In this document: positions 50,896-60,727 of the stretch, in pieces | Layout: each line of letters opens with the position of its first letter | Position numbering within the stretch: the first letter of the stretch is position 1 | NCBI GenBank assembly: GCA_016874735.1 | Contig: VGTI01000004.1 | Location: 1 to 64,000 of the forward strand | DNA from: Deltaproteobacteria bacterium | GTDB lineage: Bacteria > Bdellovibrionota_B > Oligoflexia > Oligoflexales > CAIYRB01 | DNA: 64,000 bases | Direction: 5' to 3' | Notes under the pieces: generated by a model | The model's database searches: none | Told to the model about the DNA's origin: nothing | What the model saw: only the letters and a program-made list of their open reading frames with translations | Made by a program: the position numbers and the translations under genes

Positions 50896-51234
50896 TCACT
50901 TCCAGGTCTTGCCTGTCAGAATCTTAAAGTCTGCCTTCATATCGGCGTCTGAGTACTCGGACTTTTCGAAAGCCTGCATGCTGCTGCCGATTCCATTGCG
51001 AATTGCCGATTCCCACGCTGATTGCGCTTTTGTACTACCCTTTAGCGCAGAGGCTCCTTGCTTAGAGCTCCCATCCTTACCGTGGCATCCGCCGCACTGA
51101 CCTACGTATGCCGTCGATAGGGTCGAAGCCGACGGGCTGGTGGGAGCAGGGCTCGGGGATGACGTCGATGCCGAACTACAGCCTCCTAGCACGAAAATCA
51201 CGAAGAGATAGGTACCCGTAAATCGCATTGGCAT
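50896..51234 (-). CDS. Monoheme cytochrome c lipoprotein
   Basis: 112 residues from the ATG at 51234 (AAGGAAG upstream); the upstream in-frame extension has no signal. The lipobox is VLGGC, then a Ser/Pro-rich linker. One heme motif CGGCH and a distal Met in SSMQAF fit a class I cytochrome c of the small cbb3/soluble type. It would carry electrons in the periplasm, divergent from the conduit operon. Promoter signals of both directions share the gap 51235-51440. Confidence 0.88.
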   Translation of the reverse strand: MPMRFTGTYLFVIFVLGGCSSASTSSPSPAPTSPSASTLSTAYVGQCGGCHGKDGSSKQGASALKGSTKAQSAWESAIRNGIGSSMQAFEKSEYSDADMKADFKILTGKTWK

Positions 51235-51373
51235 GGTTGGTCTTCCTTTCCGGAATTCTACAGGGACGGTGCCGAACGCGCAGTCCCACTGAATCAGTCT
51301 GGGTATCGGCAGATGTGGGACAAATATTGAGGTGGCGTTGATGATTTTGGAATTTTTAGCCATCACAACGATT

Positions 51374-51415
51374 TAACTGACATTTTTTACTGTATCACCA
51401 TGCTATAATCAGTTA
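51374..51415 (+). promoter_or_regulatory. Extended -10 promoter with flanking inverted repeat
   Basis: TGCTATAAT (51401-51409) is an extended -10 box. A CTGACA box 21 bases upstream is too far to act as a normal -35. TAACTGA (51374-51380) and TCAGTTA (51409-51415) form a perfect 7-bp inverted repeat around the promoter, which could be an operator. The first gene starts about 25 bases after the predicted start of transcription. Confidence 0.55.
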
Positions 51416-51440
51416 GAAGTAGGACTCTACGGGTGATCAC

Positions 51441-52226
51441 TTGAATAGTCGTACCTATGTAGCAATTTGGTTCACCATGCTAGCCCTGCTCGCAGGCAGC
51501 TGGCGCTGGCTCAATGCGGCCTTCGGCGATACCTTGCGCTATTGGCTCGGGTGGGGTGGGTTTGGCATCATTTGCATGACCAATCTCTACCTGCTACGCA
51601 AACGGTTACCTGTGCTCAAAAACGTCGGGCGCACGGCTGGGTGGCTCGATTTCCATATCCTTTGTGGATTAGTCGGGCCGAGTTTGATCGTTTTTCACTC
51701 CAATTTTAAGGTTGGGGGACTGGTAGCCATTAGCTTTTGGAGCATGATGATCAGCGCCGCTAGTGGCGTCGTGGGACGTTATTTCTACACGCAGCTACTC
51801 CAGCAAAGAGGCAGTCTGAAGAGAGATCTCAAGCGGTACGATGACGGCTTCCTGAAACTAAATACGATGGCACCTAAAATTTATACGACGGCGGCACTTG
51901 CGCACGCAAAGCATTCCGCTGTCCGTTTGGCATTCGGTGGTCATGAGATCGAAGACGTGCCGCAAAATCCGATCGTAGTTTTGGCTTACTCGATTCTAGG
52001 TGACATCCAGTTTTATACCAAACCCATAGCTGTCCCAGCCGAAACGTCTCGCGCAGTTCATCGTAAGTTTAAAGAGTACGGCATCATGCAACGCAAGTTG
52101 CTACTGCTCGATACATACAAACGATTGATGGGTTATTGGCACACCTTCCATGTCCCCTTTGCTGTTTTCATGTATGTGGTCGCTGTCATTCACATTATCG
52201 CTGAGCTTCTGTTTCGCGTTAAATAA
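51441..52226 (+). CDS. Polytopic membrane protein, probable di-heme b cytochrome
   Basis: 261 residues from a TTG start (GGGTGAT upstream). About five membrane helices near residues 5-22, 35-52, 68-90, 93-116 and 232-258. His72 and His86 in one helix and His237 and His251 in another are each 14 residues apart, the usual geometry for bis-His ligation of two stacked b hemes (ferric reductase and cytochrome b561 type). A loop of about 110 residues separates helices 4 and 5. It would pass electrons across the inner membrane between the oxidoreductase and periplasmic cytochromes. Heme content is predicted, not proven. Confidence 0.7.
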   Translation: MNSRTYVAIWFTMLALLAGSWRWLNAAFGDTLRYWLGWGGFGIICMTNLYLLRKRLPVLKNVGRTAGWLDFHILCGLVGPSLIVFHSNFKVGGLVAISFWSMMISAASGVVGRYFYTQLLQQRGSLKRDLKRYDDGFLKLNTMAPKIYTTAALAHAKHSAVRLAFGGHEIEDVPQNPIVVLAYSILGDIQFYTKPIAVPAETSRAVHRKFKEYGIMQRKLLLLDTYKRLMGYWHTFHVPFAVFMYVVAVIHIIAELLFRVK

Positions 52227-52231
52227 CGAAC

Positions 52232-53632
52232 TTGTCGCAACATCACGGAGATCTGCACAATTTGGAATTAACGACATGGTCTTACCTCATCTCCGACTAT
52301 TTTAGTGTGATTGCCGCCTTAATTTTGGTTCTCATGATGGTGCTCACGTACCGTCACACCAAAGCTAAACAATCTCAAGCTAGGGCCACTCTGGATGAAG
52401 CCAAATCCAAAAATCTAGCTGAGCCCTTCTCGCTGCACCCGAAAATCGACCCTAATCTATGTGCTGGTTGTGGCGCCTGCGTTCGTGCCTGCCCTGAAGG
52501 AGAAATTCTTCGACTAGTTAACAATCGCGCCGCTTTAGTCTCACCTACCAAATGTGTGGGCCACGGTGAATGCGAGGCTGCTTGCCCTTTTGATGCTATT
52601 AAGCTCGTTTTTGGGACAAAAACACGCGGCAAGGAAATCCCGCGCATCACTAGCAACTATGAAACAAATATATCGGGCCTTTATATCGCGGGCGAGCTGG
52701 GTGGAATGGGTCTCATTCGTAATGCGGTGCGTCAGGGTCGCAAAGCCGTAGAGCATGCATCTGCTCAGCTTCAACTCAGTCCCGATAAGTCCCCAGCTGA
52801 CTATGACCTTGTCATCGTCGGTGCAGGTCCGGCTGGCATTGCCGCTGCACTAGCGGCCAAGGCTCGCGGTCTGAACTATGTATGCTTGGAGCAGGATCAT
52901 TACGGTGGAACTATCGCAAATTTTCCAAGACAAAAAATCATCATGTCTCAACCTGCCGAGCTTCCCATAGTCGGACAGATGAAATTTCCACGCCATAAGG
53001 TCAGCAAAGAAGAATTAATCGCTCGATGGGAGATGATCCGTTCTGAGCAGGGTCTAGTCATTAAGGAGCATACAAAATTTCTGAATCTGATCAAGAGGGA
53101 GCCCAACTTTGAACTACAAACCTCAGATGGAGTGCTGACATCAAGGCGAGTAGTCCTTGCCACCGGCGTGCGTGGCAGTCCGCGTAAACTTGGCGTACCT
53201 GGGGAATCGCTTTCCAAAGTAACTTATAACCTCATCGAACCCGAGCAGTATCACGGGCGACATATCGCGGTCGTCGGCAGCGGAAACTCTGCTGCTGAGG
53301 CTGTGGATATGCTGTGTAAAAACAGTCTAGCCAATACCGTCTCCATGCTGGCTGTCACCAGTGGCTTCGACCGGTGTAACGAATCAAACGAACACCATGT
53401 GCGCCAGGCTGCAGCCGCGGGTCGCGTGAAGCTCTACTTCGACACAAAGGTTGAGGCGATTCGTGAGGGTTATGTGGATCTTTTAGTCAATGGTCAACGA
53501 CAAACCCTAAAAAATGACTATATTTTCATTTTCATCGGTGCGGAGTTGCAAACCGCTTTTTTTAACCAATTAGGGATTCTAGTGGATAAAAAATTTGGCG
53601 AGCCAATAAGTCGCCATCCGAGTCGCGCATGA
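52232..53632 (+). CDS. Membrane-anchored ferredoxin/FAD-NAD(P) oxidoreductase
   Basis: 466 residues, TTG start. One membrane helix (residues 19-40), then two ferredoxin-type clusters: C77-x2-C80-x2-C83-x3-C87P, and C108-x5-C114-x3-C118P in which the second Cys position is His111. Residues 190-460 form a thioredoxin-reductase-like flavin domain with GAGPAGIAAALAA for FAD and GSGNSAAEAVDML for NAD(P). The redox CxxC of true thioredoxin reductase is absent, so it likely moves electrons between NAD(P)H, FAD and FeS clusters. Its stop overlaps the next start (ATGA). Confidence 0.85.
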   Translation: MSQHHGDLHNLELTTWSYLISDYFSVIAALILVLMMVLTYRHTKAKQSQARATLDEAKSKNLAEPFSLHPKIDPNLCAGCGACVRACPEGEILRLVNNRAALVSPTKCVGHGECEAACPFDAIKLVFGTKTRGKEIPRITSNYETNISGLYIAGELGGMGLIRNAVRQGRKAVEHASAQLQLSPDKSPADYDLVIVGAGPAGIAAALAAKARGLNYVCLEQDHYGGTIANFPRQKIIMSQPAELPIVGQMKFPRHKVSKEELIARWEMIRSEQGLVIKEHTKFLNLIKREPNFELQTSDGVLTSRRVVLATGVRGSPRKLGVPGESLSKVTYNLIEPEQYHGRHIAVVGSGNSAAEAVDMLCKNSLANTVSMLAVTSGFDRCNESNEHHVRQAAAAGRVKLYFDTKVEAIREGYVDLLVNGQRQTLKNDYIFIFIGAELQTAFFNQLGILVDKKFGEPISRHPSRA

Positions 53633-54027
53633 GCAGAGTTACTTATTTGACAGCACATTTTGTGATCTTGGTCGCAACTATCTATAGCCTAGCTGGATGT
53701 GGCTTTAGTAAACCTAAAGTTAGCAACGCTGATTGGATGTCACCACGCTTCGATCATGCTCGATTTAGCGAGACTTGCGCCACCTGCCACGAAAGTGATC
53801 GCCCTTCACCAGTTTACAAGACTGCCCATGGAAACGGCCTGGACTGCGTCTCCTGCCATCGCTACACGACGGATAAGACGTGGGGTTCCTATCTGCAGTA
53901 TTCCCACTCACCAGCCCCCAAAAGCTGTACTTTTTGCCATGGTTCCATGCGCCCAGCACCGCCGCACACGCAGGAGGGTGACTGCGTAAACTGCCACAAG
54001 TTCCCTAACTGGAGGTCCGAGGCATAA
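53629..54027 (+). CDS. Tetraheme cytochrome c lipoprotein
   Basis: 132 residues. The lipobox is LAGC (Cys24). Four heme motifs (CATCH, CVSCH, CTFCH, CVNCH) are spaced about 16-24 residues apart, with other His residues as likely distal ligands. It would sit in the periplasm attached to a membrane and link inner-membrane donors to the conduit. ATGA overlap with the oxidoreductase and TAATG overlap with the beta-barrel gene mark a compact operon. Confidence 0.92.
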   Translation: MSRVTYLTAHFVILVATIYSLAGCGFSKPKVSNADWMSPRFDHARFSETCATCHESDRPSPVYKTAHGNGLDCVSCHRYTTDKTWGSYLQYSHSPAPKSCTFCHGSMRPAPPHTQEGDCVNCHKFPNWRSEA

Positions 54028-55376
54028 TGCACTGTCGGACCATCACTAAACTGATAATCGCTGCCTTTAGCATGAATCTTTGGGCGGCGGACGCCTTAGC
54101 GTATGACTATCACGGCTATCTATTGGGTGGTGGGTATATCGCTCGGGAACAATTTACCGCCGAAACGGCTGGTCTGACAAACAATGATCGCGCCGTTGTA
54201 TCATCCCGCCTTACATTAGATGTGACAAAGATCTCTAGCCAACAGTATCAGCTATTTATCGACATCCGGGATCAACATGACTTCTTTGATAAGGTTGATG
54301 CCGAAAGGCTTGAGTTGCGTGGTCGTAACTCCTTGCGTCTGCGCCAATTAAATCTAAGCGATCCCGGCCACTCACATAAATACTTCTGGACCATCGGCCG
54401 TTTTTTACCAGGTGCTAACAATGTTGTTTTCAACGATGGTATCGAATCCGGTTTGCGCCTTAACCCAAACCATCGTGTCGGTGTTTTTGCCGGTTATAAG
54501 CCAAGAATTACCGATGAACCAGTCGCTGATATAGGGTCGGATCTATATCAGATTGGTGGCTATCACATTTATGAACTAGAGGGTGAGTCTTGGGATGAAG
54601 GCAAATATATCGCTAATTTTCTGATTTCAGGTCCGGAGTTTGCAAACGACCAAGGGACCGTCACCAATACCTGGATCAATCAGAGCCTTCTACATTTTGG
54701 TCCAAGACACAGAGCAGGTTCTTATCTCAACGTTTCAGGTCAAGATTCCCCGCAACTTGAAGAGGGGCGCCTAGAGTGGGACGAACGCTTTAATACTAAG
54801 CTCTCTGCTCGGATTAGTGCGTCGCATCTCGACCTACGCGCTTACCGTCACCAAAGGGACATACTGGAGCCGCTACCTGCGAGCCCCTATTCCCAGGCGA
54901 AGGGTTTAATTCAGTACCGTATGAACGATCAGGCCAGACTCGAGGGCACGCTCATACTTGGGCGGCGGACGATCGACTACTTAGACAAGCAAGAACTAAC
55001 GCTGGGCGGCACTTTGACACGCTTTGCCACAGAGCATGCGCAGATCAGCGGGTACATCGGGACTAGACGCGGCTTTATTAGTCGCGATTTATTTATGAAT
55101 TCCGTATTCAACTACTTTGCCACCCGATGGATGAGTGATGTATCACTGCGATTGACGCGTCAAAATCGTTATAATGGCATCGTCCTAAATCAATTGATTA
55201 TTAGTAGTAATTTAGGTTTTTATTTGTCAAAGCGGATTCTAGTCTCGGCTGGTGGGGAACTTGCCGCCGATGAAAACAACAGAATCGCCAGCGGACTCCT
55301 CACGATTGGCTACCGATTCGGCACGCGAGAATTCACGCCTCTGCGCGACGTCGCGCCACCGAACGCGAGGTATTAA
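54027..55376 (+). CDS. Outer-membrane beta-barrel protein of the cytochrome operon
   Basis: 449 residues with a signal peptide ending near ALA-YDY. The rest alternates short amphipathic strands and turns (LLGGGYIAREQF, SRLTLDVTKIS, YFWTIGRFLPG, and a final GLLTIGYRFG-like strand), consistent with 18-22 strands; there are no cysteines after the signal peptide, so no heme is bound. It may sheath a multiheme cytochrome as MtrB does in porin-cytochrome complexes, but I see no MtrB-type CxxC motif and the similarity is only structural. Confidence 0.75.
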   Translation: MHCRTITKLIIAAFSMNLWAADALAYDYHGYLLGGGYIAREQFTAETAGLTNNDRAVVSSRLTLDVTKISSQQYQLFIDIRDQHDFFDKVDAERLELRGRNSLRLRQLNLSDPGHSHKYFWTIGRFLPGANNVVFNDGIESGLRLNPNHRVGVFAGYKPRITDEPVADIGSDLYQIGGYHIYELEGESWDEGKYIANFLISGPEFANDQGTVTNTWINQSLLHFGPRHRAGSYLNVSGQDSPQLEEGRLEWDERFNTKLSARISASHLDLRAYRHQRDILEPLPASPYSQAKGLIQYRMNDQARLEGTLILGRRTIDYLDKQELTLGGTLTRFATEHAQISGYIGTRRGFISRDLFMNSVFNYFATRWMSDVSLRLTRQNRYNGIVLNQLIISSNLGFYLSKRILVSAGGELAADENNRIASGLLTIGYRFGTREFTPLRDVAPPNARY

Positions 55377-57443
55377 ATGCATTTTTCAAAAATTATCGGG
55401 ATACTGAGCATCATTGTTTTTGCATCACCAATTACTTTGGCTGCATCAAATTCAAAATCCTCAAAAAACAGTCAGGGGATTTTAAACAAATTGCTTGCCC
55501 CTGGCCCACTCTCCGCGCCCCACAAGGATCTCGAACACGCAAGCTGCCTGAGCTGTCACGCAGCGGCCAATGGGGTGCCAGACAAAAAGTGCCTTGACTG
55601 CCACAAGGACATCCGCAGGTCGATCGAGAAACCAAAATCCTTTCATAAACTGACTCAAAAACCCTGCTTAAGCTGTCATAGCGAGCATAAAGGTAGAGAC
55701 TATGATTCCGCGATCATAGACAAGCTTACATTTGATCACAGTAAGACTGGCTCGCCACTATCAAAACCGCATGCCAAGCTTGCCTGTGAGGAGTGTCACA
55801 AAAACAAGCGCACCGATAAGGCACTACGTCCTGAAGATACGCATTATTTCGGACCAACGCCCAGCTGTAACAGCTGCCACAATAAAGACGACCCACATCA
55901 GTTTACGGGCAAGTTTCAATCTACAGACTGTAGCCAATGCCACCGCGACGATTCGTGGAAAGTCAACGGGATATACGACAGTATCAAACCCAACAAATTG
56001 CCGCCTCCCCCGCATTTTTTCCACAATATTGAGACTAAATACCGAGTCGATGGTAAGCATCTAGATGTAAGGTGCAACGAGTGTCACGTAAAGGTTGATC
56101 CTAGTGACACTAGAGGCAATGCTACTCGTCAATATTCATGGCCAGATTTAAATCAAAAAACATGCGAAAGCTGTCACAAGAATCCGCATATAGGTAAATT
56201 CCCACCCACTCTGATGAATCGCAAATGTAATGAATGCCATATCACCAGTAGTTGGACTAAACTGCCGCAGTTAGAGAAGAACTTTGACCACAATAATCTC
56301 ACTAGGTTTGAACTTACCGGACGTCATCAGGACATCACCTGCGCCGCGTGTCACCTGCGCGATGGTCGTGACGTTTACAAATTTCAAAATGCATCAAGTG
56401 GATTTTGCACTAGCTGCCACAAGAATATTCACTCCGATCAGTTTCGCCCCGACTACCGAAGTGAAGCGTGTTTAACATGTCACGACACAACTAGTTTTAC
56501 CAAGCTCAAGCCCTTCAATCACGATACGGAGACCCATTTCCGACTCACTGGCGACCACCTGCGGATCAAGAATCAATGCACCAAGTGCCACACCCCAACA
56601 TCTCGTATTTTATCGGAAAAACCACGTAAATTTGCGGGAAAATTTATTTTTGCCAATCGCGAAAATGGTTACTGTACCGAGTGTCATACCAACGTGCATC
56701 TTGATCAGTTCCATCAAAAATATCGGGAACAGGCATGTTCACAGTGCCATACCACTGACACCTTCCTAACCCGGCTTCCTTTTGATCATGCGAGTACCGG
56801 TTACACAATTACAGGCAAGCATGCAAATCTGGAATGCCGCGAATGCCATAAGCCCACTTCAGTGAAATTCCCTTCGCCTTTACCCCGATACAAAAGTCAA
56901 TTTATGTTCCCGGACCTTGCCAATCGCAATTGCGCCACGTGCCATAAGGATCCACATAATGGTAAGCTCGGAAGCCGCTGTATAAACTGCCACTCCGAGC
57001 AACACGCATGGTCATCGATCGATGATTTTCATAAAAATTATCTATTGGTGGGCGCGCATAATCTACTGAGCTGCGAGCAATGCCACGGACCCGACAATCA
57101 TCGCCGATTAACAGGAGCCAGCGAACGCTGTGTTTTCTGCCACAAAAAGGATGACCATCATAACGGCGGGCTACCCGAGTGCGCTCAATGTCATACGCAG
57201 CAAAATTGGCAAATTCTGAATTTCTCGCATTCTTTGACTCAATTCCCCTTAACGGGCGCCCATCGTAGTGCAACGTGCAATGCCTGCCACAAAAGAGGGA
57301 TATACGAGGGTACCCCGTACGATTGTCAAAGCTGTCACGCCAGGGATGCGCAAGGAGTGAGCTTCCCCAACCATGCGCTTGCTGGGTTCGAGGATTGTGG
57401 CAGTTGCCACAATCCATTCTCATTTAAATCAGGTCGCCGTTAG
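55377..57443 (+). CDS. Exported 24-heme c-type cytochrome
   Basis: 688 residues with a Sec signal peptide ending near LAA-SNS. I count 24 CxxCH motifs spread over the mature protein. A repeated module recurs at least six times: an F-[DNHS]-H segment, 5-6 residues, a G-x-H, then a CxxCH; several others follow a CHK-x-x-H-x-x-[QG]-F pattern, whose His residues look like distal ligands. No transmembrane or adhesion domain is seen. It starts one base after the barrel gene stop. A length and heme count this high point to a long electron wire, probably outside the cell or spanning the periplasm. Confidence 0.93.
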   Translation: MHFSKIIGILSIIVFASPITLAASNSKSSKNSQGILNKLLAPGPLSAPHKDLEHASCLSCHAAANGVPDKKCLDCHKDIRRSIEKPKSFHKLTQKPCLSCHSEHKGRDYDSAIIDKLTFDHSKTGSPLSKPHAKLACEECHKNKRTDKALRPEDTHYFGPTPSCNSCHNKDDPHQFTGKFQSTDCSQCHRDDSWKVNGIYDSIKPNKLPPPPHFFHNIETKYRVDGKHLDVRCNECHVKVDPSDTRGNATRQYSWPDLNQKTCESCHKNPHIGKFPPTLMNRKCNECHITSSWTKLPQLEKNFDHNNLTRFELTGRHQDITCAACHLRDGRDVYKFQNASSGFCTSCHKNIHSDQFRPDYRSEACLTCHDTTSFTKLKPFNHDTETHFRLTGDHLRIKNQCTKCHTPTSRILSEKPRKFAGKFIFANRENGYCTECHTNVHLDQFHQKYREQACSQCHTTDTFLTRLPFDHASTGYTITGKHANLECRECHKPTSVKFPSPLPRYKSQFMFPDLANRNCATCHKDPHNGKLGSRCINCHSEQHAWSSIDDFHKNYLLVGAHNLLSCEQCHGPDNHRRLTGASERCVFCHKKDDHHNGGLPECAQCHTQQNWQILNFSHSLTQFPLTGAHRSATCNACHKRGIYEGTPYDCQSCHARDAQGVSFPNHALAGFEDCGSCHNPFSFKSGRR

Positions 57444-57836: not shown

Positions 57837-58607
57837 CTAAGTTGACTGTGGTTTTTGGCGCTTCATACGGCCAATCACAAGCAATGCTGCCTCGAACATC
57901 AGGTACATAGGAATCGCGAGTGCCACTTGAGACATAGGATCCGGGGAAGGAGCTATAACTGCAGCCGCTGTGAGAATTCCCACCAAAATGCCACCGCGAT
58001 GTTTTTTAAGAGTGACCTCTTGAACGAGCCCTAGGCGCTCCACAAGTATGATCACAAGTGGTAGCTGAAAGGCTAAACCAAAGGCAATAATCATGAACAC
58101 TAACATGTCCACGTATTCACCGACCGTGATGATTGCGTCAGCCTGATCACCACCAAAACCCACTAGCCACTTAAGCCCCACAGGTAGCATAACAAAATAG
58201 CAAAAGATCACTCCCAGCCCAAAAAGTAGCAGCGAACTTACAAAAAAAGGTATAGTCAGCCGATGATCTCGCTCAGGGAATGCCGAAATCATGAAACGCC
58301 AGATTTGGAAAAATCCGAGTGGTAACGCCAGCAAAAATGCGGCTACGAAGGCGACTTTCATATACGCCATCATCACCTCAAGGGGGCCGGTAAAATGCAG
58401 CACCTGCGCCTGTCCCGGCAGAGCGTCTGCCAGGGGAATCTTCAAAAAATTAATCAGATCCTGCGCAAAATAAAATCCGACAGCTACAAATACCAAGAAT
58501 ACAGACACCCATTTGACCAACATTGACCGCACTTCATCAACGCGTTTAAACAAAGTGCCAGCGCGACTTGACTCCAAATGAGCGATCAGTGACTGTACAT
58601 TAGACAT
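57837..58607 (-). CDS. tatC: Twin-arginine translocase subunit TatC
   Basis: 256 residues with six membrane helices. Conserved segments: FTGPLEVMMAYMKVAFVAAF, LPLGFFQIWRFMISAF (the FxxxEhP-type region is varied), FCYFVMLPVGLKWL and the APSPDPMSQVALAIPMYLMFE signature. TatC recognises the RR signal and forms the translocon core. It overlaps the preceding permease gene by 8 bases. No tatA or tatB is nearby, so they must lie elsewhere. Confidence 0.93.
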   Translation of the reverse strand: MSNVQSLIAHLESSRAGTLFKRVDEVRSMLVKWVSVFLVFVAVGFYFAQDLINFLKIPLADALPGQAQVLHFTGPLEVMMAYMKVAFVAAFLLALPLGFFQIWRFMISAFPERDHRLTIPFFVSSLLLFGLGVIFCYFVMLPVGLKWLVGFGGDQADAIITVGEYVDMLVFMIIAFGLAFQLPLVIILVERLGLVQEVTLKKHRGGILVGILTAAAVIAPSPDPMSQVALAIPMYLMFEAALLVIGRMKRQKPQST

Positions 58608-59940
58608 GACGCATAGCCTCGGCCACTACCATGCGACTTGCCCTCCGCGAGCAGAACCAGGCAGTCCCCGTGGCTAAAAGACTCAGCACCGTAGCGCTAA
58701 TGATCCACGCGCCCACCGAGTAACGTACCCTCAAATTTATCGGCACCGAGAGTATACCAGCCTTGTAGGTCAAGCCAGCGTGATCAATAGCAAATGTAAT
58801 CAAAATCGTGACCACCAATCCGATAATGCATGCGATCAAACTTAGACACGCTCCCTCAACCGAGAACATCCACACTAAATGCCGCCTTAAAAAACCCAGA
58901 CTGCGCAACGTGCCGATCTCACGGATGCGCTCGTTGACAGATTTCATCATGGTGTTTGCGACAGACATAACACCAATCAAAACCACGATAGTCATAAAAA
59001 GATTACGGAATACATGAAGAATCTGTAGCCCCCCCATGACGTAGGACGTCATAGGATGATCTTCCCATCGATCGACCTGCAGGTTGAAACCTTTCGTCGC
59101 GATTGCCGCTCGCAAACGCGCGATGAACTGGTCTCGATTGTTCGGATTTTTTAATTGCACCGAGATCATCGAAATCTTGTCGGTATCAAGTAATCGCTGC
59201 GCTTGGGCCAAATCGACGCGGATGGCCCTCTTATCTGCTTCACGGAACCCAGCATCGAATAATCCGCTTACTGGTAAATCAATAGCATTAACCTGAGCCG
59301 CTTCCGTGGTGGCCGACAGCGTTACCCGCGGATGCTTGCAAAGAAAAGGTCTTTTCTCGGGGATATAATTACCGTCCTCGAGGATGAAGTTAGATCCATC
59401 GTATGTGGAATCACAGTCAATAAGGTGTCCAAGCCCCATGCCCAGACTAATCGACGGTTCTTTAACCTGATCAAGTGGTTCACCAGCCAATGTGTACCAG
59501 TACCAGCGATCACCGCGGACCTCTCCACCTTCTTTGACATCAATGGCATAACTTGTGAACACCGTATTATAAGGCCCTGCATTGACCATGCCTACCATAT
59601 ATAAAAATCTAACCCGACGGAGAAACTCCGGATCATTACGCAGGAACGACTCAACGAAATCCTGCTCCTCTTTGGTGATAGCATAGGCCCACTGGTCTTC
59701 AGCTGTAGCTTCACTTGCACCCACTTTTTGGATCACCAATTGACCCAACATGCCCCTAGTCGTAAAGCTATCTACGTTTCGCTCGTGTAGCTCTTTAAGA
59801 AAACCATCGAATAGCGAGACAGCCATGAATCCCGAGGCAATTGCCAATATCGTCGCCAAGCTGTGGCGCCAATTGCGAACCACATTGCGCCAGGCAAGGC
59901 GAGACATCTGCCTATAAACACTAAGTGACTGTGCCGCCAT
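58600..59940 (-). CDS. LolC/E-like (FtsX/MacB-type) ABC permease
   Basis: 446 residues. One N-terminal membrane helix (SLATILAIASGFMAVSLFDGF), a large periplasmic domain with SM-RR-type variation, then three C-terminal helices (NLFMTIVVLIGVMSVANTMMKS, then two more). This is the MacB_PCD plus FtsX layout of lipoprotein-release and MacB permeases. It is 4 bases downstream of the LolA-like gene and is the second of two permeases in the cluster. It overlaps tatC. Confidence 0.88.
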   Translation of the reverse strand: MAAQSLSVYRQMSRLAWRNVVRNWRHSLATILAIASGFMAVSLFDGFLKELHERNVDSFTTRGMLGQLVIQKVGASEATAEDQWAYAITKEEQDFVESFLRNDPEFLRRVRFLYMVGMVNAGPYNTVFTSYAIDVKEGGEVRGDRWYWYTLAGEPLDQVKEPSISLGMGLGHLIDCDSTYDGSNFILEDGNYIPEKRPFLCKHPRVTLSATTEAAQVNAIDLPVSGLFDAGFREADKRAIRVDLAQAQRLLDTDKISMISVQLKNPNNRDQFIARLRAAIATKGFNLQVDRWEDHPMTSYVMGGLQILHVFRNLFMTIVVLIGVMSVANTMMKSVNERIREIGTLRSLGFLRRHLVWMFSVEGACLSLIACIIGLVVTILITFAIDHAGLTYKAGILSVPINLRVRYSVGAWIISATVLSLLATGTAWFCSRRASRMVVAEAMRHV

Positions 59941-59944
59941 TACG

Positions 59945-60727
59945 TTATCTCACAAGGTTATTAATATTGAATTGACTGTCCGGATGATTCTCGGGTTTGG
60001 GATTGCTGTAAGTTATGACCGTATGGCTTCCCTGCTTAAGGGCATCAAGAATGTCCATCTCACTCACAAATTGCATGGATTTACCGTCGAGCGTGACCTT
60101 GTTCATGTACTTAAATAAGGCACTCTTAAACATATCTCCGCTAACTGTCAGAAACTCCGCCTTCAGACCCAAGTGATCTTTTTTCGAAATCCAGTAGCGT
60201 ATGCCGTCATAGGTTACATTCTTGGCCTTCGCTTTAAGCTCAAGTTTAAAACAATCAACGGATCCGACTTTTTCCTCACCGATGACCTTACCCTCGTAGT
60301 CTCGGTAGTAGTTTGTCGAGGCGATATCACCATTGGCAGCCTGTCCCATCAGCTTCTGACGCGCTGAAATCGCAACCGGTTTCTTTAGCCCCGGTTTGAA
60401 AAACCATAGGTTGCGATCGTTGAAGAGCATAGTCTCGCCTTTGTTGCGGGCAGGCGAGATGGCCTCTGCCAGAGCATCAACCCCCTTGACTTTAACGAGG
60501 TAGTGAACCTTATTTTGCCCACCGTCTTCGAAGGTCTCGACATCGATCTCCCATGAGATACCGCCTTCCAGCGCGCCGCGTGCTTTATCAGAGTCCTTTA
60601 GCAAGTCGTCGGCAGAGGGAGGAGTGGCCGCCGCTGGAGCTGATGGGGTGCCTCCCTTAGCGTAAACCCGCGAGCTGAGGTTAGTCACACCCAGGACCAA
60701 GGATAGTAAAATAGTCTCCGCAACCAT
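59945..60727 (-). CDS. LolA-like outer-membrane lipoprotein-sorting protein
   Basis: 260 residues with a signal peptide ending near VYA-KGG (GGAGGT before the ATG). The mature part matches the PF17131-type LolA-like fold: ISWEIDVETFEDGGQNKVHYLVKVKGVDALAEAISPARNKG (cut here), LWFFKPGLKKPVAIS and YRDYEGKVIGEEKVGSVDCFKLELKAK. Proteins of this kind are often near LolCDE-like ABC transporters and may carry lipid or lipoprotein to the outer membrane. Located between the two permeases. Confidence 0.85.
   Translation of the reverse strand: MVAETILLSLVLGVTNLSSRVYAKGGTPSAPAAATPPSADDLLKDSDKARGALEGGISWEIDVETFEDGGQNKVHYLVKVKGVDALAEAISPARNKGETMLFNDRNLWFFKPGLKKPVAISARQKLMGQAANGDIASTNYYRDYEGKVIGEEKVGSVDCFKLELKAKAKNVTYDGIRYWISKKDHLGLKAEFLTVSGDMFKSALFKYMNKVTLDGKSMQFVSEMDILDALKQGSHTVITYSNPKPENHPDSQFNINNLVR

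Follow-up and report, generated by a model that had tools for sequence, protein, structure and literature searches.

A conserved PCC3-like porin-cytochrome gene cluster with a constant ferredoxin-flavoprotein as its predicted electron-entry enzyme

The first 64,000 nucleotides of contig VGTI01000004.1 (the window), from the 4.65-Mb draft genome of a Deltaproteobacteria bacterium of the Oligoflexales, carry five tightly packed forward-strand genes that belong to a real, conserved system of the porin-cytochrome kind. The known system that it most resembles is PCC3; what sets it apart is an unusual, constant electron-entry enzyme, and its function is predicted from sequence. The favoured reading, given a probability of about 0.55, is that of a PCC3-like porin-cytochrome conduit with a dedicated NAD(P)H flavoprotein and fused ferredoxin at its cytoplasmic end, acting instead of or beside the quinone pool. 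Cofactor motifs, gene set and co-inheritance all support a conduit at the sequence level; direct coupling to NAD(P)H is supported mainly by the co-inheritance of flavoprotein, inner-membrane protein and conduit.

The first of the five genes encodes an inner-membrane protein (IMP; 51441-52226; 261 amino acids, five predicted transmembrane helices, with a TTG start whose exact position is uncertain). It is followed by the flavoprotein (52232-53632; 466 amino acids), which combines a transmembrane anchor, a ferredoxin, and FAD and NAD(P) domains, and by a tetraheme c-type lipoprotein (53629-54027; 132 amino acids, lipobox LAGC), the variable slot of the operon. The last two genes encode an outer-membrane beta-barrel (54027-55376; 449 amino acids, 22 predicted strands) and a 24-heme cytochrome (55377-57443; 688 amino acids) with a type I signal peptide and c7/c3-like triheme units, at 28.7 amino acids per heme. 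Successive genes are separated by a gap of five bases, overlaps of four and one, and no gap at all. The tetraheme gene contains four CXXCH motifs and the last gene 24, against a mean of 0.28 and a maximum of three in shuffled versions of the 688-residue protein. A first-pass annotation of the window had proposed these genes, with a sixth, divergent one, as a conduit-like set covering both membranes. All six are present, with the open reading frames, CXXCH counts and domains described there, and the overall proposal is borne out as far as sequence can tell.

The core gene set is conserved and co-inherited in scattered members of several bacterial lineages. The flavoprotein was found in 12 of 58 genomes of the window's own phylum. 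Among 369 genomes of the sister phylum it occurs in 27, and the barrel in 28, including all 27; a strong IMP match is present in 27 genomes, 26 of them shared (Fisher p=4e-40 and 1e-37 for the two co-occurrences, values that ignore phylogeny). Relatives of the flavoprotein were also found in 23 Bdellovibrionota/Oligoflexia-type metagenome-assembled genomes (MAGs) of a public collection, with IMP, barrel and large cytochrome nearby in most; many of the exceptions have contig ends close by. The same-genus relatives of the source genome are likewise MAGs. In Bacteroidota, 40 of 395 genomes match the flavoprotein at E<1e-60, about 36 of them with the right architecture, and the 18 loci read contain both cytochromes in every case and IMP and barrel in most. 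The Bacteroidota barrel is homologous to that of the window (hhalign E=2.9e-18 over 390 columns), and within a chosen set of genomes it is present in 34 of 36 with the flavoprotein and in none of 44 without (p=1e-20). Of the genomes sampled, about 9% in Bacteroidota and 7% in Bdellovibrionota carry it. Co-occurrence elsewhere is thus almost perfect, both in the sister phylum and in Bacteroidota, and this check did not refute the first-pass proposal. A plasmid search added pEMTOL02 of Emticicia oligotrophica DSM 17448, which encodes CcsA, IMP, flavoprotein (42% identical), 23- and 40-heme cytochromes and a 538-residue protein. In the flavoprotein tree, a long, fully supported branch splits Bacteroidota from the rest and the window's phylum groups together (98/97); the phyla being separated in this way, nothing points to a recent transfer from one to another. 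Barrel and wire genes are neighbours in almost every locus read, and some clusters include CcsA or ResB and CcsA maturation genes, which also speaks for a conduit.

The flavoprotein consists of an N-terminal hydrophobic segment, a two-cluster ferredoxin and a Pyr_redox region. The transmembrane anchor (about residues 13-45) precedes CxxCxxCxxxCP at 77 and CxxHxxCxxxCP at 108; a putatively permuted FAD segment (about 128-188), the FAD domain and then the NAD(P) domain follow. Positive charges after the transmembrane segment suggest, by the positive-inside rule, that the protein beyond its anchor is cytoplasmic. The Fe-S, FAD and NAD(P) motifs are conserved among relatives. His111, in the second ferredoxin motif, is invariant in 50 of 50 sequences, while Cys80 is substituted in 14 of 50, by Ser in all but one. 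The second Fe-S cluster is probably His-ligated, and it is possibly a three-iron cluster.

The nearest relatives of the FAD and NAD(P) domains are YpdA/Bdr and thioredoxin reductases (7a76, 7a7b; E ~1e-42), but the match ends about 47 residues before the C-terminus of these enzymes. The missing C-terminal segment (TNvpGlYiaGELGGmGLIrNAvkQG) is located ahead of the FAD domain instead. A profile of this segment alone gave 18 matches in the PDB, all to FAD/NAD(P) oxidoreductases and all at the FAD motif after the NAD(P) domain; they are individually weak (best E=0.0065) and consistent as a group. The full profile places the segment, in a second match, on the C-terminal part of 7a7b and of 3cty, and relocating the segment in silico made the TIGR04018 and thioredoxin reductase matches slightly longer. 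On these three grounds the protein is taken to be a circularly permuted thioredoxin-reductase-like enzyme. It shares FAD and NAD(P) domains with YpdA/Bdr and thioredoxin reductases and would differ from them in its permutation, its fused ferredoxin with the His motif, its membrane anchor and its lack of the YpdA cysteine. An assignment as a YpdA/Bdr disulfide reductase was rejected: TIGR04018 scores 160.8 bits against a cut-off of 339.9, and the sequence reads GAGPAG, without the Cys of GGGPCG. A match on a Pseudoalteromonas plasmid was unrelated, being a much longer flavoprotein amid glycosyltransferases. The oxidoreductase partner, which the first-pass annotation had called unusual, is indeed so, as a permuted ferredoxin-flavoprotein.

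The IMP has five hydrophobic segments and is a probable di-heme b protein. Its candidate heme ligands, histidines 72/86 and 237/251, lie in two WX3HX13H motifs (68-86 and 233-251), and SGVVG occupies residues 108-112. The four His of the two HX13H pairs and the SGxxG motif are kept in 27 of 27 aligned IMPs and both Trp in nearly all; Bacteroidota IMPs retain the whole motif set. IMPs of PCC3 and PCC4 have been described with five helices, SGxxG and two WX3HX13H motifs, and likened to ferric reductase/NOX proteins and cytochrome b (PMC5566968). The PCC3 description, of about 300 residues and five transmembrane helices with SGxxG on the fourth and WX3HX13H on the third and fifth, applies to the present proteins, which have 261-297 residues. 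No meaningful match to the IMP profile was found among PDB sequences. Distant IMP-like matches in eight other Bdellovibrionota genomes were set aside, as the five loci read are without the conduit set: three have no multiheme cytochrome nearby, and two adjoin a 7-heme cytochrome but have neither barrel nor this flavoprotein. The latter two (L068:5403-6937 and L071:9884-11427, from two genomes) may represent a separate redox set.

The barrel was modelled by AlphaFold2 with a mean pLDDT of 84, and 22 strands were counted from DSSP. It had no match in Pfam or NCBIfam at E<=1, and its profile had none among PDB sequences, the MtrB family included, at E<=10. Foldseek returned generic porins and the FimD usher (best TM about 0.49), with MtrB not among the 50 matches listed; this search was not used for membership.

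For the 24-heme protein, 22 full-length orthologs were aligned, and all have heme counts that are multiples of three: 21, 24, 27, 30, 33 or 36. The only exception to this rule, L031, is cut by a contig end. Both ends of the protein are conserved and the length variation lies between them. The profile covers nearly all of MtrA (6r2q_A, E=1.3e-6). In Bacteroidota the wire is split. The first protein, cyt1, begins like the window's 24-heme protein and, where complete, contains 20 or 23 hemes; the second, cyt2, has 22 to 64, nearly always 3n+1. All six wires tested look like cyt1 at their first hemes and like cyt2 at the last few, and the window protein would accordingly correspond to cyt1 and a short cyt2 in one chain. 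Since, in PCC3 terms, cyt1 would correspond to the periplasmic cytochrome and cyt2 to the extracellular one, this chain is expected to cross the outer membrane; it is more likely an in-barrel wire than the purely secreted cytochrome of the first-pass layout, in which the gene set itself was correct. The genes for cyt1 (3n-1) and cyt2 overlap and their heme counts sum to a multiple of three (e.g. L066:11290-16178), as if one chain had been split within a triheme unit. One Bacteroidota genome encodes a 1661-residue cytochrome with 64 CXXCH motifs (L099:12767-17749).

Two same-genus genomes (L018, L019) lack the gene that follows the flavoprotein; in other loci its product is mostly a probable lipoprotein, of 2 to 27 hemes, and the member in L032 includes seven MtrC/MtrF-like domain stretches. 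Such variability would suit a terminal or accessory cytochrome, as which the tetraheme lipoprotein is read here. The tetraheme and monoheme genes of the first-pass scheme are confirmed, but their place in it probably needs changing: the former fills a variable slot and the latter was seen only within the genus.

The suggestion that the conduit was new in kind is not supported. The IMP bears the motif set published for PCC3 and PCC4, which likewise contain a porin along with cytochromes very rich in heme (PMC5566968), and the PCC3 periplasmic cytochrome has 21, 24 or 27 hemes (PMC10734462), a range that includes the 24 of the window, with 21-36 in its relatives. Because of these two agreements, the kind is known in outline. 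By their published description, PCC3 clusters (He et al. 2017, PMC5566968; in Gallionellaceae, PMC10734462) are alike in porin, heme-rich cytochromes, IMP motifs and repeat-built wires. All parts of the PCC3 set (porin, periplasmic and extracellular multiheme cytochromes, IMP) are present in the Bacteroidota loci, whereas the window's second cytochrome is only the tetraheme lipoprotein, which may face either side of the membrane. The barrel also differs, with 449 residues and 22 strands against up to 42 predicted strands in PCC3, and the ferredoxin-flavoprotein that is constant here does not appear in the published PCC3 set. PCC4 shares the IMP motif set, a porin, a tetraheme cytochrome and a redox gene that precedes that of the tetraheme cytochrome (PMC5566968). 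It was rejected as the identity of the cluster, having periplasmic cytochromes of 4, 5 and 10 hemes and no large wire, against 4 and 24 hemes here. PCC4 and other IMP clusters have redox genes of unspecified domains, so a redox partner as such is not claimed as new. What seems undescribed is a constant permuted flavoprotein with a His-motif ferredoxin in a PCC3-like conduit; no paper on this partner was found in the open-access literature on Bdellovibrionota, Oligoflexia, Bacteroidota and Emticicia.

Other known systems were also compared. A Burkholderiales porin (Arbour et al. 2020, PMC7399161) is preceded by genes for 24- and 49-heme cytochromes that vary in length by CXXCH blocks, an arrangement also seen in the Bacteroidota loci; its authors place it with OmbB, and the text reports no flavoprotein. 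MtrCAB and MtoAB share the concept of a barrel with an in-barrel multiheme wire, and the wire aligns weakly to MtrA, but the present barrel has no MtrB match and the wire has 24 hemes rather than 10. The first-pass observation that MtrA/B/C-type features are missing was correct, and MtrAB, MtoAB and PioAB were rejected: TIGR03508 (DmsE/MtrA) scores 64 bits against a cut-off of 192, OmcA/MtrC is also below its cut-off, and the barrel is not of the MtrB/PioB family. The Ext selenite/tellurite cluster was likewise rejected, the best of ExtM, ExtN and ExtO scoring 36 bits against 200. MtrAB has been reported in magnetotactic Bdellovibrionota (PMC13200544).

In the proposed mechanism, NAD(P)H would reduce the FAD of the permuted flavoprotein, and electrons would pass to its two Fe-S clusters, one probably His-ligated, and on to the two b hemes of the IMP, which would carry them across the inner membrane as in NOX and ferric reductases. 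IMP and flavoprotein would thus link NAD(P)H to the periplasm as a bridge in two pieces, similar to NOX and ferric reductases; the two HX13H pairs are shared with those enzymes, whereas flavin and heme parts are here on separate chains. From the IMP, electrons would pass to the N-terminal end of the 24-heme chain. This chain is proposed to be a wire built of triheme units that spans the periplasm and threads the 22-strand barrel, its C-terminus lying outside; the tetraheme lipoprotein would be an accessory or terminal cytochrome. Net flow would most likely be outward, to Fe(III), Mn(IV), humics, electrodes or other cells, making the system a reductant outlet; electrons leaving in this way would dissipate, not build, membrane potential.

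Several points weigh against this mechanism. The window genome has two flavoprotein-barrel sets but, by genome search, one IMP, which both sets may share. In some genomes the flavoprotein lies several kb from the barrel or on a different contig. The spacing of CXXCH motifs by itself accounts for part of the similarity between multiheme proteins, and the AlphaFold2 model of the 24-heme protein (pLDDT 50) is too poor to judge its shape. The IMP may also make contact with quinone.

This last point leads to a quinone-linked PCC3, in which the IMP would exchange with the quinone pool and the flavoprotein would be a side input, for example of NAD(P)H under stress. Quinone contact is part of the model of He et al. 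for IMPs of this motif set (PMC5566968), and the IMP-like protein beside a 7-heme cytochrome occurs without this flavoprotein. However, the barrel accompanies the flavoprotein in 27 of 27 sister-phylum genomes, too strict a pairing for an optional input, and this account is judged unlikely. Slightly less likely again is inward use of the same conduit, with extracellular Fe(II), Mn(II), an electrode or partner cells feeding wire and IMP and the flavoprotein making NAD(P)H or reduced ferredoxin. His-ligated clusters and multiheme wires are usable in both directions, but reduction of NAD(P)+ from donors as oxidising as Fe(II) is uphill, inward transfer works against the membrane potential, and the cluster has no energy-coupling subunit. 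Inward flow has nevertheless been proposed for PCC3 and PCC4 in Fe(II) oxidisers (PMC5566968). An assimilatory or protective reductase, which would reduce ferric iron, metalloids or oxidants outside the cell to supply iron or to detoxify rather than for respiration or redox balance, is improbable. NAD(P)H would fit as its source and the wire is weakly similar, below cut-off, to Ext cytochromes, but wires of 21 to 64 hemes far exceed what assimilatory reductases are known to need, and among the genes directly flanking the window cluster none was recognised as serving iron uptake. The IMP motif pattern is common to ferric reductase and NOX domains (PMC5566968), which would agree with such a role. 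Least probable is that there is no path across the outer membrane, the cytochromes being a periplasmic store or relay and the barrel an ordinary porin: its Foldseek matches are general porins and ushers and placement of any part outside the cell is predicted only, but the barrel is strictly co-inherited with the redox genes and its gene adjoins that of the wire almost throughout.

Well-studied conduits take electrons from quinol. If the NAD(P)H-linked conduit is real, it would directly couple the redox state of the cytoplasm to minerals, electrodes or neighbouring cells, in groups (Bacteroidota, Bdellovibrionota) not usually counted as electroactive. A broader proposal is more tentative, and doubtful as a whole: a widespread, so far undescribed, quinone-bypassing class of conduits, in which the permuted ferredoxin-flavoprotein (with its His-ligated Fe-S cluster) and the di-heme b protein would act as a split NOX-like NAD(P)H dehydrogenase, and a one-piece wire across the outer membrane would have its length set by triheme units (21 to 36 hemes), being split into 3n-1 and 3n+1 proteins in Bacteroidota. 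The triheme-growing series is a natural ruler for wire length and end points. The idea is testable, as a culture-collection strain, E. oligotrophica DSM 17448, carries the cluster on a plasmid.

The divergent monoheme c-type lipoprotein (Cytochrome_CBB3; 50896-51234, reverse strand) is accessory at most, its conservation being seen in the genus only. The open reading frame (50896-51366) contains one CXXCH motif. Its presence agrees with the first-pass annotation, but the gene probably starts at 51234 rather than 51366, as at the former an ATG gives a lipobox (LGGC) and relatives begin likewise.

Genes for TatC, an FtsX-type permease and a LolA-like protein lie directly downstream of the cluster (57837-60727, reverse strand), and size-matched genes trail it in same-genus genomes. 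The second set in the window genome (L046, G000:C2:24000-40000) comprises flavoprotein, tetraheme lipoprotein, barrel and a 36-heme cytochrome, with no adjoining IMP. ResB-like and CcsA-like cytochrome c maturation genes lie inside the cluster of L031 (2295-5853; Pfam-tested in this locus only), gene pairs of similar size occur in L023, L027 and L028, and Emticicia has a fused CcsA gene upstream. On the opposite strand of pEMTOL02 (L066:1025-5647), the neighbours are a c-type cytochrome domain protein, YceI, a DUF5777 barrel, a Rieske protein, an outer-membrane barrel and a sigma-70 factor.

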